Source: Psychroflexus tropicus DSM 15496
Lineage (GTDB): Bacteria; Bacteroidota; Bacteroidia; Flavobacteriales; Flavobacteriaceae
DNA: 64,000 bases
NCBI RefSeq assembly: GCF_000378765.1
Contig: NZ_KB905344.1
Span: 140,332-204,331, forward strand
Direction: 5' to 3'
A model generated the notes under the pieces. The model worked only from the letters and a program-made list of their open reading frames with translations. It did no database searches and was not told where the DNA came from. Positions 41,894 to 48,712 of this stretch are shown here, in pieces. Position 1 is the first letter of the stretch; every line of letters starts with the position of its first letter. The position numbers were made by a program, and so were the translations under genes.

Positions 41894-41922
41894 TTAGGGT
41901 TGACTTGTTAAGTGTTGTTTTA
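41894..41922 (+). promoter_or_regulatory. ECF-type promoter site 1, before the acidic lipoprotein gene
   Basis: TTAGGGT (41894-41900), 13 bases, GTTGTTTTA (41914-41922), then 25 bases to the ATG. Both boxes are identical to those before the ECF sigma and FecR genes. Confidence 0.75.
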
Positions 41923-41947
41923 TAAGTGAACCATAAAACAAAACACT

Positions 41948-42937
41948 ATGAAATTTTTAAAATCTATAGCAGTAATTTTAGCACTGACTTTAGTTTGGTC
42001 ATGCTCTTCAGACGATTCAGATTCCAACCCAAGCTTAGCAGACTTGCCTAAATCTAATCTTGAAATTAAAGCAGTCGCTTCCGGAAGTGCCAACACCAGC
42101 AGCTCAGCAAAAGCTATTGCAGATGTTGAGGTATCTGAATTTTTGATTAATATCACCAATATTGAATTTGAATTTGCTGATGGCTTTGGAGTCCCAGGAA
42201 ACTCTTCTGGAAATTCAGATGATGACGATAATTTAAATTTTGAAGACTTACCCGAAGAAATAGTTAGCTATTTAGAAGAAAATTATCCAAACGACCCATT
42301 TTGTAAAGGAGAACTTGAAGATGGTGACGACGATGATCCTTATGTTTATGAAATCGAACTTCAAAGTGGGACCGAAATTTACTTCAGAGAAGATTTTTCA
42401 GTTTATGCTACAGAAACCGATGACGACGGTTGTGACGATAACGGTAACGATAATAGCGATGATGATAGATACGATTCTGAAGATGAATTTGAACTTAGAG
42501 GACCATTTGAGCTTAATCTGAGCCAGGATGAAGTCACTGTTGTTGAGGTAGAAATTCCTGTTGGAGAATATGATGAAGTTGAATTTGAAATGGAAAGGAG
42601 TAATGATCCAACTAGCGAACTGTATCAGAAATCTATCTTAATGAGAGGTACAATTTCTGGAACAGCATTTGAATTTTTCCACACTTTGGAAGAAGATTTC
42701 GAAGTCGACTATGAAGACCAGGTCCAAAATCTTATCATTACAGAAGATAATAATAATTCGATTGTATTCGATTTCGATTTGGTTGCTGTTTTTAATCAGG
42801 TAGATCTTTCGGGAGCATCAGACGGTAACGGTAACGGAACGATTGAGATAAGTCCAGAAGATAATGATGGGAATAGACAATTGGCAAACCGTATTAAGAA
42901 CGCTATTGAGCAGTATGTGGATCTCTTAGATGATTAA
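41948..42937 (+). CDS. Acidic lipoprotein, DUF4382-like with a PepSY-like insert
   Basis: 329 residues. The signal MKFLKSIAVILALTLVWSC has a lipobox at Cys19. Beta-rich parts (NLEIKAVASGSANTSSSAKA; GPFELNLSQDEVTVVEVEIP; SILMRGTISGTAFEFF) resemble DUF4382-type sandwich domains. Between them about 95-140 reads LPEEIVSYLEENYPNDPFCK ... YVYEIELQSGTEIYF, the outline of a PepSY-like (BLIP-type) module. A very Asp-rich loop (about 155-175) could bind Ca2+. All domain calls are by eye. It carries ECF site 1, so it is a likely target of the sigma factor 2.8 kb away. Confidence 0.7.
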   Translation: MKFLKSIAVILALTLVWSCSSDDSDSNPSLADLPKSNLEIKAVASGSANTSSSAKAIADVEVSEFLINITNIEFEFADGFGVPGNSSGNSDDDDNLNFEDLPEEIVSYLEENYPNDPFCKGELEDGDDDDPYVYEIELQSGTEIYFREDFSVYATETDDDGCDDNGNDNSDDDRYDSEDEFELRGPFELNLSQDEVTVVEVEIPVGEYDEVEFEMERSNDPTSELYQKSILMRGTISGTAFEFFHTLEEDFEVDYEDQVQNLIITEDNNNSIVFDFDLVAVFNQVDLSGASDGNGNGTIEISPEDNDGNRQLANRIKNAIEQYVDLLDD

Positions 42938-43338
42938 TTAAAACTTACGTCTCAATTTCAAGACCCTTGCCAGATTATTTGGCAGGGTTTTTTTCTTTTT
43001 TTGAATTTGCATAATCCAGCTTAAACTTGGAGATACATGCTTAAGATTTTTATTTCATTTAAAACTGTCGTCTTGGGATTCATTTTCACCTGAAGCAATT
43101 AAGTTCACTTTTACCTAGCTTAAACCATTCATTTTATTAGCTATAAAATTACTGGATAGATTTATTCAGTAAAAATCAGTAGACAATATGTAAACTTAGA
43201 CCAAGCAGATTCCTTTTTTATTATTTATCGTCGGCTAGTCTTGCCTCAATGGAAAGCTACTCGATATTGTAAATAATTAAAGACTTAATCGATTACAAAA
43301 GGCGAATTAATTTGCAAGAGAGGTATTGGTTTATAAGA
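42938..43338. other. 401-base intergenic region between two convergent lipoprotein loci
   Basis: Apart from the terminator at 42963-42994 I see no gene, RNA or repeat here. Base composition is like the surrounding intergenic DNA. Confidence 0.6.
42963..42994 (+). terminator. Terminator after the acidic lipoprotein gene
   Basis: ACCCTTGCCA pairs with TGGCAGGGT (one bulge) across a seven-base loop and runs into seven T. Confidence 0.85.
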
Positions 43339-43572
43339 TTAGTGTGAGTCGATCTCTTTTCTCATTTTAGATTTTAGCTGACCTAGTATAATAAGAATAG
43401 CAATAATTGGTATGGTTCCTAAAAAAGGAGCTGTGGTATCTTTTCCAATGATGAATTTATACAATATAAGGCCAACTAAAATCAGCCAGGCCACCAGGAC
43501 GGAATAGAAAATAGCATTAACGGTTTTCAATTTACCTTTAAGTTCAGCTTTTGAAGAGTCTTCCTTTTCCAT
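43339..43572 (-). CDS. Small protein with two membrane segments
   Basis: 77 residues. Two hydrophobic stretches (about 20-41 and 51-65) are separated by a short KFIIGKDTTAPF loop, with charged ends (EKEDSSKAELKGKLK and KSKMRKEIDSH). No family was recognised. It starts nine bases after the second lipoprotein gene and is almost certainly cotranscribed with it from ECF site 2. Confidence 0.65.
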   Translation of the reverse strand: MEKEDSSKAELKGKLKTVNAIFYSVLVAWLILVGLILYKFIIGKDTTAPFLGTIPIIAILIILGQLKSKMRKEIDSH

Positions 43573-43581
43573 AGGTAATAA

Positions 43582-44622
43582 TTATAATTTTTCAAAGGTA
43601 AGCAGACTTCGGTCGATATCATTGTCTTCATCAAAAAGCACTATCGCATCTGGATTTCCAAAAGCACTTACAACCCAATCTTCATCCAGCTCATCCAGCT
43701 CATCATTGTCATCTTCAAAGTTTAGATCGAATATAAATTCACCATCGTCTATCTCTGCTTCCCAGGTTCCGGAAAAGCTCTCTCCAGAATTAATGTCTTC
43801 TATTGAAATGCTATTATTGGTATTGAATGTAAATCTATAGTCTTGGTAAGATGTAGTGAGGTCCTCATCATCTTCATCTATAAATGAGGTGATTTGAAAT
43901 ACTCCATCACTCACAAATGCGATAAAATCTTCTAACCTGGATTCAGTATTCAATAAGGAAGGATTAAAACAGCTTTGATCTAGATTTTCTATAGCTGAAA
44001 TTAAATCTGTATTAGATAATAGAGAACTCTCAACTCCTTCAATTTCTATGGTGATAGGATAATTTAATTCATAAAAGCCACTGTTTACTTTAAGACTTTG
44101 AATGAGGTTATGTGATTGCGCTTTATTTTGCAATGTTCGATTATCGGTTAAGCTATTCTGGGCATCAAAAATCTTAGCATTAATAGGAAATTCAAATTCT
44201 AAGCAATTGATTTCAGAAGAACCCAATGTCGTGTTGATAACTGAGTTATATTCAGACTCACTCTCAACAATCAGTGTTTCATAATTAGAGAAAGATATTT
44301 CCGTGGGAAATGTAATGCTAAGTGTATAGGAGGTGGTTTGATTAGAAATTTCATCGATTAAAGTTTCATAGTCAGAGAAATCAGATATAATGAAATCAGA
44401 TCCTGAATTCAGATTAACCTCAAAAGGGAACTCTAAGCTAATCGCATTAGACCCATCTACAAAATCATCAAAAGCAGTAGGGTTTTGTGTAAGCCTTAAT
44501 AACAAATCACTTATCTCACTTTGAGAAGATATAGAGGTGAGTTCTTCTACCTGTTCAAAGCGCTCCTCGCTTTGGCATCCCCATAAAATCCATAGTGTTA
44601 AAATAAAGTAGAAGTGTTTCAT
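43582..44622 (-). CDS. Secreted lipoprotein of unknown function, ECF-controlled
   Basis: 346 residues from ATG at 44622; the upstream frame adds 13 residues before the signal and is rejected. The signal MKHFYFILTLWILWGC has a lipobox at Cys16. The mature part has repeated SISFP/SLEFPFEV-like strands (AISLEFPFEVNL, YTLSITFPTEISF, LEFEFPINAKIF, YELNYPITIEIEG), suggesting a repeat of a beta unit. The C-terminus is strongly acidic (DEDDEDL, NFEDDNDELDELDEDW). No known family was recognised. On the minus strand ECF site 2 lies 31 bases upstream, so it belongs to the same regulon as the sigma factor it faces. Confidence 0.7.
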   Translation of the reverse strand: MKHFYFILTLWILWGCQSEERFEQVEELTSISSQSEISDLLLRLTQNPTAFDDFVDGSNAISLEFPFEVNLNSGSDFIISDFSDYETLIDEISNQTTSYTLSITFPTEISFSNYETLIVESESEYNSVINTTLGSSEINCLEFEFPINAKIFDAQNSLTDNRTLQNKAQSHNLIQSLKVNSGFYELNYPITIEIEGVESSLLSNTDLISAIENLDQSCFNPSLLNTESRLEDFIAFVSDGVFQITSFIDEDDEDLTTSYQDYRFTFNTNNSISIEDINSGESFSGTWEAEIDDGEFIFDLNFEDDNDELDELDEDWVVSAFGNPDAIVLFDEDNDIDRSLLTFEKL

Positions 44623-44653
44623 CGTTTGTAAATTTATTAAATTCCTTTTTAAG

Positions 44654-44682
44654 ATTAACAACTCAGTTGCGCTATACCCTAT
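44654..44682 (-). promoter_or_regulatory. ECF-type promoter site 2 (minus strand), before the second lipoprotein
   Basis: Read on the minus strand: ATAGGGT (44682-44676), 13 bases, GTTGTTAAT (44662-44654), then 31 bases to the ATG. It shares TAGGGT-N13-GTTGTT with the other three sites. Confidence 0.65.
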
Positions 44683-44689
44683 GTCAATG

Positions 44690-44718
44690 TTAGGGTAAAT
44701 TCATTTTGAGTTGTTTTA
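44690..44718 (+). promoter_or_regulatory. ECF-type promoter site 3, before the sigma factor
   Basis: TTAGGGT (44690-44696), 13 bases, GTTGTTTTA (44710-44718), 25 bases to the ATG. It sits back to back with site 2, seven bases apart. Confidence 0.75.
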
Positions 44719-44743
44719 TTTGTGAAAACTAGCTTTAGGGCCT

Positions 44744-45265
44744 ATGCAAAAAGAACTGTCTAAAGACGTTTGTGAAGAAAAACGATACGAGCATATTTTC
44801 AACACTTATTCTGAAGTAATAAATAATTATTTCTTCTATAAATTTGGTAATAAAGAAATGGCTAAGGAATCTGTGCAGGAGGCTTTTATAAAACTTTGGG
44901 AAAATTGTAAAAAGGTACCACCTTCAAAAGCTAAATCCTTTCTTTACACTGTTGCTAACAATTTATCTTTGAATAGATATAAGCATCAAAAAGTTGTTTT
45001 AAACTATGCCAATACTGTTCCTCAGCAAACTAAGGATGAACAAACTCCTCATTTTAAACTGGAAGAAGAAGAATTTAAAGTCAAATTAGAACAGGCGATA
45101 CAGAAGCTTTCTGAAAAACAAAGAGTGGCGTTTTTGCTTCACCGGATCGATGATAAATCCTATAAAGAAATTGCTGAAATCCTAGACATAAGTGTAAAAG
45201 CTGTAGAAAAACGTATGCAGAAAGCTCTGGAAAGCTTAAGAGAACATATTGAAGCCTTTAATTAG
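44744..45265 (+). CDS. ECF-type RNA polymerase sigma-70 factor
   Basis: 173 residues: only sigma regions 2 (about 18-82, FGNKEMAKESVQEAFIKLWE) and 4 (about 122-170, LSEKQRVAFLLHRIDDKSYK then the EIAEILDISVKAVEKRMQKA helix-turn-helix), as in ECF factors of the FecI-like Bacteroidota type. FecR follows after 44 bases. ECF site 3 upstream implies autoregulation, and the other three sites give its probable targets. The TAG stop is part of ECF site 4. Confidence 0.95.
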   Translation: MQKELSKDVCEEKRYEHIFNTYSEVINNYFFYKFGNKEMAKESVQEAFIKLWENCKKVPPSKAKSFLYTVANNLSLNRYKHQKVVLNYANTVPQQTKDEQTPHFKLEEEEFKVKLEQAIQKLSEKQRVAFLLHRIDDKSYKEIAEILDISVKAVEKRMQKALESLREHIEAFN

Positions 45266-45290
45266 GGTAAACCGTTTTTATGTTGTTTTA
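45262..45290 (+). promoter_or_regulatory. ECF-type promoter site 4, before the FecR gene
   Basis: TTAGGGT (45262-45268), 13 bases, GTTGTTTTA (45282-45290), 19 bases to the ATG. The stop codon of the sigma gene lies inside the first box. Confidence 0.7.
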
Positions 45291-45309: not shown

Positions 45310-46197
45310 ATGAAGAAAAAATACAAATTAGCAGATTGGCTTGATGATAAGATTGACTCTAAAGATTTACATGGAGAGAAAGGTTTAGAGACTCTAATGA
45401 AAATTAAGCATTATTCAGCACAACTTGAAAAGCCAGAATTTTCTAAAGCAGAAGTTTTTGAAGAGATAAAAAGTAATAGGCCAACAGTAAAGAAAATAAA
45501 ATTTAACTGGTCAATTGCCGCCTCTATCTTTATAATACTAGGGGTTACCTCGTTAGCCTTTCTGTTTTCTGTAAAAGACTTTACTTCTCAACTCAACACT
45601 CAGGAAACTGTTCTGCTGCCAGACCAATCCAAAGTGATTCTTGCGGAAGACACAAGATTTCAATTCAATAATTGGTTTTGGAGTTTTGACAGGACTACTC
45701 AGCTTAGTGGTCAAGCCTATTTTGAAGTGAAAACAGGAGATACATTTATAGTAAAAACAGAGCTTGGTGAAGTAAAAGTGTTGGGAACTCGCTTCGATGT
45801 TTACTCCAGGGATTCCACATTTAAAGTGATTTGTTACGAGGGGTCTGTAAAAGTGAGTTTTAAAAACAGCAAGGAAGTATTGAAGAAAGGTCAGTTCGTC
45901 ACTTTTCAAAATGGTAAAAAAATTGAACAAAGTAATGTTTATGAAGACCAACCCGAATGGGTGACCAAAACCAGCCAATTCAAAAATGTAAGCTTAGCTG
46001 AAGTAATTCAACAACTTGAAAAAGACTATCAAATTGAGGTGGATATTTCTCAAGTTTCTACGAATAAAAGTTTTACAGGAACACTGCCTACCGACAGTTT
46101 ATCACTGGCTTTAGAGATACTGAGCGAAACTTATCAAATCGATTTTACAGTCATCAACGAAAATAGAATTATTTTTGTTAATGATGAACAAAGATAA
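45310..46197 (+). CDS. FecR family anti-sigma factor
   Basis: 295 residues. A short cytoplasmic part (1-65) is followed by one membrane segment (about 66-88, WSIAASIFIILGVTSLAFLF), a periplasmic FecR domain (VLLPDQSKVILAEDTRFQF, GQAYFEVKTGDTFIVKTELG, VKVLGTRFDVYS) and a C-terminal DUF4974 domain (about 224-295, LAEVIQQLEKDYQIEVDIS). FecR holds the sigma factor and releases it on a signal from the receptor. It has its own ECF site, and its end overlaps the receptor gene by about 14 bases. Confidence 0.94.
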   Translation: MKKKYKLADWLDDKIDSKDLHGEKGLETLMKIKHYSAQLEKPEFSKAEVFEEIKSNRPTVKKIKFNWSIAASIFIILGVTSLAFLFSVKDFTSQLNTQETVLLPDQSKVILAEDTRFQFNNWFWSFDRTTQLSGQAYFEVKTGDTFIVKTELGEVKVLGTRFDVYSRDSTFKVICYEGSVKVSFKNSKEVLKKGQFVTFQNGKKIEQSNVYEDQPEWVTKTSQFKNVSLAEVIQQLEKDYQIEVDISQVSTNKSFTGTLPTDSLSLALEILSETYQIDFTVINENRIIFVNDEQR

Positions 46198-48712
46198 TTT
46201 TTGTTGTAAACCTATTTTTATAGCCTTACTGATTTTATTTGGCTATAGTCTTCAAGCTCAATCTGGAGAAAAGATTGAGCTTATTGAATTGTTGGATAGA
46301 ATCGAAGAGGATCACACTGTCAACTTTAATTATTTAAGTGAAGACCTGGACAACCTCTATGTAGAACCTCCACCTGAAAGGAACTCTTTAGAACAATCCT
46401 TGGAGTTTATAAAACTGCAGTTTCCTCTGGAGTTTATTTTTGTGACAAATAAGAGTATATCTATCGCAATTGATTCTTCAAAAAAATGTATAAGCTTTAT
46501 AGATGCTAATTCAGGTTCAAGCATTTCAAATGTTGTAGTTCAATTCAATTCCTCCAAAATTGCAAGTTCCAATGCCTTTGGAAAAGTTTTCTTAGAAAAA
46601 TCGATAAGTCTAAACGATATTGTAGTAACACATCCCAATTACTTAAACAGGCAAGGAAGTATGGATAACTTAAATGATAATAATTGTATCTCAATTTATC
46701 TATACCCAGAGATAGAATTAGATGAAGTTATTATCAAAGAGTATTTGGCCAAAGGTATATCGTTAAACTTAGACAATAGCCTAAAGATAATTCCCCAAGA
46801 ATTTGGTGTTTTACCAGGTCTTATCAATGCAGATGTTCTTCATAGTTTGCAATATGTTCCAGGAATTGTCAATACTGATGAAACCATTGCTCAAATTAAT
46901 GTTAGAGGAGGGACACATGATCAAAACCTGGTTCTGTGGAATGGTTCAAGAATGTATCAAACCGGTCATTTTTTTGGAATGATTTCCGCGATCAATCCGC
47001 TCATGAATCATGAGATTAAAGTATTTAAGAACGGAAGTTCTGCTTTTTATAATGAGGGTGTTTCCTCAGTCATTGATATTTCATCGCGAGAACATTCTCA
47101 GGATTATAAGAGAACTCTACAGTTAGATTTTTTAAGTGCCAACGCAAGCGCTTTGTTAATGTTGAACAAAAAGTCCAACCTTCAGGTTGCGGCTAGAAAA
47201 TCCTTAACAGAAGTCTGGGATTCCCCTACCTACGATGGATTTACAGATAAAGTATTTCAGAATACTGAGATTCAGGATTTGCTCCAGGGTGATGATAATA
47301 AAGTAACTACTGAGCAGGAACTTCAGTTTGTGGATGTTTCGCTTCAGTATGATTATGAATTTAAAGAAGGAGCTAAATTGAATCTGGATGTACTAGCTAT
47401 TCAAAATAAACTTACCTTCGACGAGGTTTTGGAGACTACTTTAGAGCAAAAGCGTAATGATTTTGAGCAGAGTAGTTTTTTAGCCAATTTGAGTTTTGAA
47501 AAGGAGTGGAGCGAGAATCATACATCCTCAGTGGCTTTCAATGCTTCTATTTATGATCTTGAAGCCTTCAATCAATCTGTATTGAACGATCAAACCTTGC
47601 TTCAAAATAACGGAGTTGTTGATCTCAAACTCAGTTTAAAAGATACTTATATCCTTTCAGATCTCTTTACTCTTCGGATGGGATACCAGCTTAATGAAGT
47701 CGGAGTAAGAAATAATAGCATAGTCAATTCGCCTGAGGTGATTTTAAGAGACAAACAAGTACTGGTTACCCATTCTGGGATTGGAGAATTGGATTATACG
47801 TCTGGCAATAGAAAGTTAAAGACAAAACTGGGAATTCGCGGAAATTACTATGACGATTATGGAGATTTTCGACTAGAACCAAGGTTCAATTTAAGTTTTC
47901 AAGCCAACCGACATTGGCGATGGAATTTACTTGGTGAAATTAAAAACCAAAGCCTCACCCAAGTAATCGATCAGCAACAAGATTTTTTAGGAGTAGAGAA
48001 AAGGCGCTGGGTGCTTGCTAATGAGGATAGTTTCCCCATCCTTAATAACTTACAATTAGAAGCTGGCGTCAACTACACTAAAAACGCATGGATGCTTCAA
48101 GCTAATGTATATCATAAAACTGTAGAACGTATTTCATCAGGAAGTCAAGGGTTTCAAAATCAATTAGAGTTTCTACAAATCAATGGGGACTACGAAGTAC
48201 TTGGGGCTGAGGTACTCATTCAGAAACGTATAAATGATTTTAATTTCTGGATTAACTTTTCGGTCATGGATAACGAGTACGATTTCAGAACTTTTGAACC
48301 TCAGCAATTCGCTAATAATTTCGAGATTACTCAAAGTTCAGCTTTTGGAGCAAGTTATACGTCAAATTCAGTTCAACTGTCTGTAGGAGGTCGCTACTTC
48401 GCTGGCAGGCCTATTACAGAAATTGATCTTGAAAGTCCGATATTGACTCCAAACACCAATCCAAGGATTAATTTTCTAAATCCGAACGAAGGAAATCTTG
48501 AAGATTACTTTCAGGTTAATTTCACGGCGAGTTATCAGTTTGATCTCAAACATTCTTTAGTAAAAACAGGCTTTAGTCTATTGAATGTATTTAATAGCAA
48601 TAATATCACTCAACAATTCTATAGACTGGAGGATGTCAATACCCGTATTGAAAATGTAAGAGTCAGAAGTTTAGCATTAACTCCCAATGCATTTATTTCC
48701 ATCCAGTTTTAA
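46184..48712 (+). CDS. TonB-dependent receptor with N-terminal STN signalling domain
   Basis: 842 residues from ATG at 46184 (46181 also possible). A signal peptide (PIFIALLILFGYSLQAQ) is followed by an STN domain (about 30-95, IELIELLDRIEEDHTVNFNY), a carboxypeptidase-like segment, a plug (GLINADVLHSLQYVPGIVN, INVRGGTHDQNLVLWNG, FKNGSSAFYNEGVSSVIDIS) and a barrel ending in FISIQF. STN domains pass the substrate signal to FecR. No SusD gene follows, so this is a FecA-type signalling receptor, not a SusC polysaccharide system. Ligand is unknown. It overlaps the fecR-type gene. Confidence 0.92.
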   Translation: MNKDNFCCKPIFIALLILFGYSLQAQSGEKIELIELLDRIEEDHTVNFNYLSEDLDNLYVEPPPERNSLEQSLEFIKLQFPLEFIFVTNKSISIAIDSSKKCISFIDANSGSSISNVVVQFNSSKIASSNAFGKVFLEKSISLNDIVVTHPNYLNRQGSMDNLNDNNCISIYLYPEIELDEVIIKEYLAKGISLNLDNSLKIIPQEFGVLPGLINADVLHSLQYVPGIVNTDETIAQINVRGGTHDQNLVLWNGSRMYQTGHFFGMISAINPLMNHEIKVFKNGSSAFYNEGVSSVIDISSREHSQDYKRTLQLDFLSANASALLMLNKKSNLQVAARKSLTEVWDSPTYDGFTDKVFQNTEIQDLLQGDDNKVTTEQELQFVDVSLQYDYEFKEGAKLNLDVLAIQNKLTFDEVLETTLEQKRNDFEQSSFLANLSFEKEWSENHTSSVAFNASIYDLEAFNQSVLNDQTLLQNNGVVDLKLSLKDTYILSDLFTLRMGYQLNEVGVRNNSIVNSPEVILRDKQVLVTHSGIGELDYTSGNRKLKTKLGIRGNYYDDYGDFRLEPRFNLSFQANRHWRWNLLGEIKNQSLTQVIDQQQDFLGVEKRRWVLANEDSFPILNNLQLEAGVNYTKNAWMLQANVYHKTVERISSGSQGFQNQLEFLQINGDYEVLGAEVLIQKRINDFNFWINFSVMDNEYDFRTFEPQQFANNFEITQSSAFGASYTSNSVQLSVGGRYFAGRPITEIDLESPILTPNTNPRINFLNPNEGNLEDYFQVNFTASYQFDLKHSLVKTGFSLLNVFNSNNITQQFYRLEDVNTRIENVRVRSLALTPNAFISIQF

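Follow-up and report, generated by a model that had tools for sequence, protein, structure and literature searches.

Closest described systems and the Psychroflexus locus

In Escherichia coli, the genes for the extracytoplasmic function (ECF) sigma factor FecI, the regulator FecR and the TonB-dependent receptor FecA are clustered; according to the part of the source used here, there is no autoregulation of fecIR, and the only promoter under FecI control lies before fecA (PMC9249621). We analyzed a similar locus in a 64,000-nt stretch of DNA from Psychroflexus tropicus DSM 15496 (Flavobacteriaceae; contig NZ_KB905344.1, positions 140,332 to 204,331), hereafter the window, in whose own numbering positions are given. 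As in E. coli, an ECF sigma factor, a FecR protein with FecR and FecR_C domains, and a TonB-dependent receptor were found together. Unlike in the E. coli Fec system, two-part boxes were present before the sigma gene, before fecR and before several lipoprotein genes, among them lipoA and lipoB of the window, and no separate box preceded the receptor gene, which follows fecR. Judging from sequence and conservation, the four boxes in the window are very probably promoters read by the sigma factor of the same locus, within a FecI/FecR/TonB-receptor surface-signalling unit.

Related systems have been described in the same phylum, in sources of which selected parts are drawn on here. In Bacteroides glycan loci, a TonB-type porin, an anti-sigma factor and an ECF sigma factor act together (PMC3878776); the P. 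tropicus locus differs by its lipoA- and lipoB-type lipoproteins and by the lack of a match to the SusD model in the seven window proteins scanned. It also resembles Dma/Das of Bacteroides thetaiotaomicron, a sigma/anti-sigma pair affecting the cell surface, from which it is distinguished by a separate TonB receptor (PMC13088901). Within the same family, the SM6 promoters of Flavobacterium psychrophilum, also of the ECF type, were found from mapped 5' ends; they have CGT in the -10 element and type IX secretion targets, whereas the boxes described here have TGT(T/C)-N-TA and lipoprotein and receptor targets (PMC9723704). The prediction of ECF-controlled promoters has been called a challenging task (PMC3878776), and we do not claim that the motif is unpublished.

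The boxes, their core motif and their distribution

A sequence-only reading of the window had proposed four copies of an ECF promoter, TAGGGT-N13-GTTGTT, as a private regulon of the adjacent sigma factor. Indeed, the exact pattern occurs four times in the window (41895-41919, 44691-44715 and 45263-45287 on the plus strand, 44657-44681 on the minus strand) and nowhere else in it, with 0.00 matches expected from 100 shuffles. When two mismatches were allowed, 8 matches were obtained versus 4.4 expected, and the exact class alone stands out. The stretches TTAGGGT and GTTGTTTTA, said to be common to the three plus-strand sites, were found in the sequence, and the reported distances of 19-31 nt to the start codons agree with the site ends used in that reading; measured from the last base of GTTGTT, the distances become 28, 34, 28 and 22 nt. 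The spacers are unrelated among the four genes and divergent between species. Two of the boxes lie back to back, with TAGGGT inverted, in the interval between the divergent lipoB and sigma genes, and the fecR box opens with the stop codon of the sigma gene (45263-45268), an overlap also present in eight named Psychroflexus loci.

The scan of the whole genome (G000; 3,000,470 bases or 3.0 Mb, 16 contigs) that the sequence-only reading had proposed returned five exact matches, four before genes of the locus and the fifth at C1:763518 on the minus strand. All 18 one-mismatch matches were read: 16 lie within called open reading frames (ORFs), and for the other two no ORF begins in the next 300 nt downstream.

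Across a comparison set of 27 Psychroflexus genomes, the 12-letter pattern was not enriched, with 30 matches versus 28 for the reversed pattern, which served as the control for genome sets. The -35 half of the proposed motif, TAGGGT, was upheld, and the -10 half had to be redrawn: the first two letters of GTTGTT vary and TGT(T/C)-N-TA is conserved. The conserved core is thus TAGGGTA-N14-TGT(T/C)-N-TA; with TAGGGT-N15-TGTT-N-TA, 61 matches were obtained in the same genomes versus 12 for the reversed pattern. In 150 distinct sites, the two parts read GTAGGGTAA and TGT(T/C)TTA, with TAGGG and TGT fixed by the selection of the sites and the other letters free. At lipoA, fecR and the distal targets, each box stands singly as a directional, two-part element with a fixed 14-nt spacer and a -10-like half, mostly some 20-40 nt upstream of the start. 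From GG to TGT the boxes span 19 bases, and the -10/-35 numbering is thus provisional. The letters of classical ECF promoters, AAC in the -35 and CGT in the -10 according to the part of the source used (PMC8103513), were not found in the boxes.

When the intergenic regions of relatives were aligned, as had been suggested, the boxes were retained before the same genes and the rest of the upstream DNA had diverged. In the eight named Psychroflexus loci, the gene order is kept as far as each fetched stretch extends, and upstream of each of the four genes TAGGGT and TGTT are separated by 15 bases. The lipoA box has the exact 12-letter pattern in 7 of the 8 species with lipoA in reach and two mismatches in P. 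curvus, and the lipoB box has TAGGGT-N15-TGTT in all 9 species. Exceptions were found in P. curvus (TAGGGC in the lipoA box, TATGGT in the sigma box) and in the metagenome-assembled genome T3Sed10, in which the fecR box spacer is one base shorter and lipoA is absent from the contig. Eight more divergent genomes, with sigma factors 53-65% identical, carry the same boxes, and in spite of the rearranged gene orders of several of them a box is kept before lipoA, lipoB, sigma and/or fecR.

In the family set (397 Flavobacteriaceae genomes), lipoB homologs were found in 259 genomes and lipoA-type homologs in 34, each count including three Psychroflexus genomes. The corrected pattern gave 374 matches in this set versus 85 for the reversed control, with 183 and 74 genomes having at least one match, respectively. 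Within 200 nt upstream of the called start, 21 of 27 lipoB loci from other genomes of the family had TAGGGT-N15-TGTT exactly, 4 had the TGTC form and 2 were without a box; for 27 lipoA-type loci, 13 exact and 2 one-mismatch boxes were found. We then considered 20 larger loci from other genomes of the family, picked from the high-scoring upper part of the lipoB list. In these, sigma, FecR and receptor genes adjoin lipoB in a recurring arrangement (lipoB <- box / sigma / box -> fecR -> TonB receptor), and 18 of them have the box on the fecR side, 19 the one on the lipoB side, with either TGTT or TGTC. By comparison, the reversed pattern gave zero matches in 162 windows around 54 sigma genes. In a sample of the phylum, lipoB was matched in 31 of 296 genomes, 26 of them from Flavobacteriaceae; each of seven loci of this family fetched from the sample had at least one TAGGGTA box, and a locus from another family had TAGGAGG before fecR (L302). 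The motif, the sigma factor, FecR, the TonB receptor and the lipoB family are thus common across Flavobacteriaceae, and the regulon cannot be called private; the circuit looks like an old, shared surface-sensing system of the family.

Further candidate targets were located away from the sigma gene. The lipoA gene lies 580 kb from it in one genome (G006) and on a separate contig in two drafts (G017 and G025), with the box at 32-37 nt. A DUF4382 lipoprotein gene (E ≤ 1e-30) was found in 5 of the 27 Psychroflexus genomes, within the sigma locus in two and about 70 kb off in three, and TAGGGT-N15-TGTT is present upstream in all five. In other genomes of the family, 40 distal sites, picked among the matches listed and away from paired sigma boxes, were read. 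Judged by a home-made rule, the gene that follows has a start resembling that of a lipoprotein or a signal peptide at 23 of them, compared with 9% for 4000 positions drawn at random. Another 3 lie before genes of other kinds; 5 of the 40 are located inside called ORFs. Recurrent among these targets were a lipoprotein that has DGYY repeats and whose start is twin-arginine-like (RRxFIxxSGQALLA), in six genomes (L217, L220, L221, L236, L241 and L242), and, irrespective of whether a sigma gene adjoins it, a lipoB-family gene in five genomes.

The fifth exact match of the P. tropicus genome lies 115 nt before a DUF4304 gene. A chance origin was considered for it and set aside, since the box is exact before DUF4304 orthologs in 4 of the 10 genomes with the gene. 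It has one mismatch in two more (TATT in P. curvus, TAAGGT in P. longus) and is degenerate or absent in P. aurantiacus, P. gondwanensis, G026 and G001. On this comparison, the DUF4304 gene is no more than a candidate target of the box system. From the fifth box to the gene (about C1:763400-763520; L001/L120 and orthologous loci), a strongly conserved pair of palindromes was also observed, of the TACGGTTTTnCCGTA and TTTACGGTTnnACCGTAAA type, which looks like the operator of another putative regulator.

The regulator proposed to read the boxes

In the proposed mechanism, the receptor would meet its ligand and its N-terminal part would signal through FecR, by which the sigma factor would be freed or activated. 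Together with RNA polymerase, the sigma factor would then recognize the -35 element TAGGGTA and, 14 nt further, the -10 element TGT(T/C)-N-TA, leading to transcription of lipoA, lipoB, sigma and fecR-receptor. The lipoproteins may aid the receptor with the same ligand. The sequence-only reading had likewise taken the boxes for promoters of the adjacent sigma factor, placed before the sigma gene, fecR and two lipoprotein genes, and this part is supported at the level of sequence; direct binding we infer from the co-occurrence of boxes and sigma factor and from the class-specific boxes of related sigma factors.

Indeed, sigma genes of a sister class adjoin boxes of a sister type. In three family loci (L197, L201 and L202), sigma sets next to the TAGGGT sets bear TAGGAAT-N14-TGTT-N-TA at the same places. 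The P. tropicus genome itself encodes, outside the window, a paralog that is 48% identical (C1:50743-51246; L084); here fecR is preceded by TAGGAAT...TGTC, and the divergent side carries TAGGAAA...TGTT. In a tree of the sigma factors, the TAGGGT class is split from the TAGGAAT class, and a TGTC subclass is nested in the former.

The inverted TAGGGT pair between lipoB and sigma could suggest that the boxes are sites of another DNA-binding regulator and that the promoters are ordinary sigma-A ones. However, at lipoA, fecR and the distal targets the boxes are single, directional and two-part with a fixed spacer; the inverted partner before sigma is missing in the 20 loci from other genomes of the family, where the other boxes are retained; and in sister sigma clades the -35 box is of a sister type and the -10 is unchanged. 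We regard this explanation as improbable. It is quite improbable, too, that the boxes are read by a different ECF sigma factor of the genome, or by several overlapping ones, and not by that of the locus. The genome has 26 sigma-like stretches, two of them at E ≤ 1e-40, and for a relative the part of the source used discusses ECF regulons that overlap (PMC9723704). However, the closest paralog adjoins TAGGAA-type boxes, and the core follows the sigma factor of the locus: a close sigma (at least 53% identity) is present in 18 of the 27 Psychroflexus genomes, and all 18 have core matches (56 in total). Among the nine genomes without a close sigma, two have core matches (5 matches: one before lipoA in G019 and four in a 4.1-Mb genome, two of the latter intragenic), and five genomes with only a more distant paralog have 0, 0, 0, 0 and 4. 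Finally, chance or recently duplicated repeat DNA, with which the control-level counts of the 12-letter pattern over the genus would agree, has practically no likelihood: the sequence-only reading had already judged chance unlikely, none of the window sites is expected by chance, the spacers differ between genes and diverge between species, the corrected core exceeds its control in the genus, and its family-wide conservation already refutes this explanation.

As a separate observation, two core matches with near-identical spacers lie 2.5 kb apart in G026 (C1:3458848 and C1:3461315; L102), about 390-430 nt ahead of the next listed same-strand ORF starts.

The box before the sigma gene itself differs in its distribution from the others. 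Of 17 Psychroflexus systems, 15 have it; it was absent from all 20 systems from other genomes of the family, in which the best partial matches mostly had two to four mismatches, one having a single mismatch with a spacer of 16. An eighteenth Psychroflexus system (L108), outside this count, has TAGGGC in front of sigma, and its boxes for lipoB and fecR are exact. According to the part of the source used, FecI-like sigma factors are usually not autoregulated (PMC8103513); the lack of an own box before sigma was accordingly observed in the 20 other systems and not in the window. Because of this distribution, the predicted autoregulation looks like a genus-level gain. An exact fecR box was found in 10 of the 17 systems. 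In five of the seven without it (G006, G009, G011, G017 and G025), the sigma end and the fecR start are no more than 11 nt apart; in the other two, fecR follows after 40 nt (G013) or has the box with the shorter spacer (T3Sed10). Given the short sigma-fecR gaps, the sigma box can therefore mostly serve both genes.

We also compared 42 sigma factors of the TAGGG clade with 25 others, the boxes of 17 added sigma factors being read by eye. Tyr occupies position 140 in all 42 of the clade and in none of the 25; at position 159, the 42 have Ser, Gln or His and the 25 have Tyr. Residue 159 aligns with His174 of SigW, a -35 contact according to the part of the source used (PMC6713349). A link between this separation and box class is suggestive only. 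A rule by which an aromatic residue at 159 reads AA was dropped: His is present in 7 of the 42, and SigW has His yet reads AA. We give about an even chance to the proposal that sister FecI-like sigma factors of Flavobacteriaceae carry a diversified promoter code, which would partition the paralogs of the large lipoB family of surface lipoproteins among parallel surface-signalling circuits of the same cell, with residue 159 and its neighbours as the switch. In this code, the -10 TGT(T/C)-N-TA, GG at -35/-34 and the spacing would be fixed, and the next three bases would vary by sigma clade (GTA, AAT, AGA/AGT, TGT and GCA).

Several observations weigh against this interpretation of the boxes and of the code. 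In G019, a single-contig, 99%-complete genome, the lipoA box is intact (lipoA at C1:2394317; L099) and no sigma was found at E ≤ 1e-40. In another genome (G017; L114), neither a box before sigma nor an adjacent exact box was found. At fourteen of the 40 distal sites, no gene starts less than 200 nt away, and 12 of the 27 lipoA-type loci from other genomes of the family have no box with one mismatch allowed, at least one of these 27 starts (L140) being poorly called. Among the 20 lowest-ranked lipoB homologs listed, 8 have TAGGGT, 4 TAGGAAT and 8 neither exactly; by eye, these last eight showed other -35-like boxes with a TGTT -10 (TAGGACT, TAGGTGT, CAGGAGA, CAGGAAA, CGGGA and CAGGGCA types). 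No STN domain was matched in any of 12 aligned receptors. With regard to the code, two sister-clade sigma factors (L081 and L083) are exceptions by box, with a TAGGGT divergent box and, like the rest of the 25, Tyr at 159. Neither the recognition helix (p = 0.80) nor the -10 loop (p = 0.69) is enriched in the class-specific residues, and the covariation of residues and boxes is phylogenetically confounded because the sigma classes form essentially one deep split.

Genes of the locus and implications

The locus comprises, in order, a gene for a DUF5686 protein, a box and lipoA, then lipoB, divergent from sigma, followed by fecR, the TonB receptor gene and a gene for a DUF2141 protein (Table 1).

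Table 1. Boxes and genes of the P. tropicus locus, in window positions
Feature	Position	Strand	Details
Box before lipoA	41895..41922	+	TAGGGTT-N14-TGTTTTA
lipoA, acidic lipoprotein	41948..42937	+	weak PepSY-like and DUF4382 matches, both under the Pfam cut-off
lipoB, lipoprotein	43582..44622	-	family common in Flavobacteriaceae
Box before lipoB	44654..44681	-	TAGGGTA-N14-TGTT
Box before sigma gene	44691..44718	+	TAGGGTA-N14-TGTTTTA
ECF sigma factor, TIGR02985 subfamily	44744..45265	+	127 bits versus a cut-off of 126.4
Box before fecR	45263..45290	+	TAGGGTA-N14-TGTTTTA; TAG is the sigma stop codon
FecR-type sigma regulator	45310..46197	+	FecR 3.5e-15, FecR_C 2.1e-13; adjoins sigma
TonB-dependent receptor	46181..48712	+	overlaps the end of fecR; Plug 2.3e-07

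The sigma factor has 173 residues and consists of the sigma2 and sigma4 regions only (Sigma70_r2 at 28-83, r4_2 at 114-165). The Plug domain was matched in all 12 aligned receptors and FecR_C in 6 of them, the window receptor not being among the six. For lipoB, no match was found in Pfam or NCBIfam, nor to a solved structure. The lipoA profile, in contrast, matched the structure chains 3due and 3db7 over a PepSY-type segment, 3db7 being deposited as a 'putative calcium-regulated periplasmic protein'. Moreover, a conserved acidic loop of the DGNGNGxIEISPED type was observed at the lipoA C-terminus (42820-42880), and the middle part of the protein is Asp-rich; we take these stretches to be reminiscent of calcium-binding loops. 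A metal-related ligand, as the PepSY-type segment and the acidic stretch might suggest, is a guess only.

Overall, sequence alone allowed an ECF promoter to be predicted in many genera, together with its targets, a sister -35 class and candidate switch residues. A common lipoprotein family for which no Pfam or NCBIfam model was matched thereby gains a predicted regulator and testable promoters, and sigma/promoter pairs that are related yet apparently distinct become available as a natural set.

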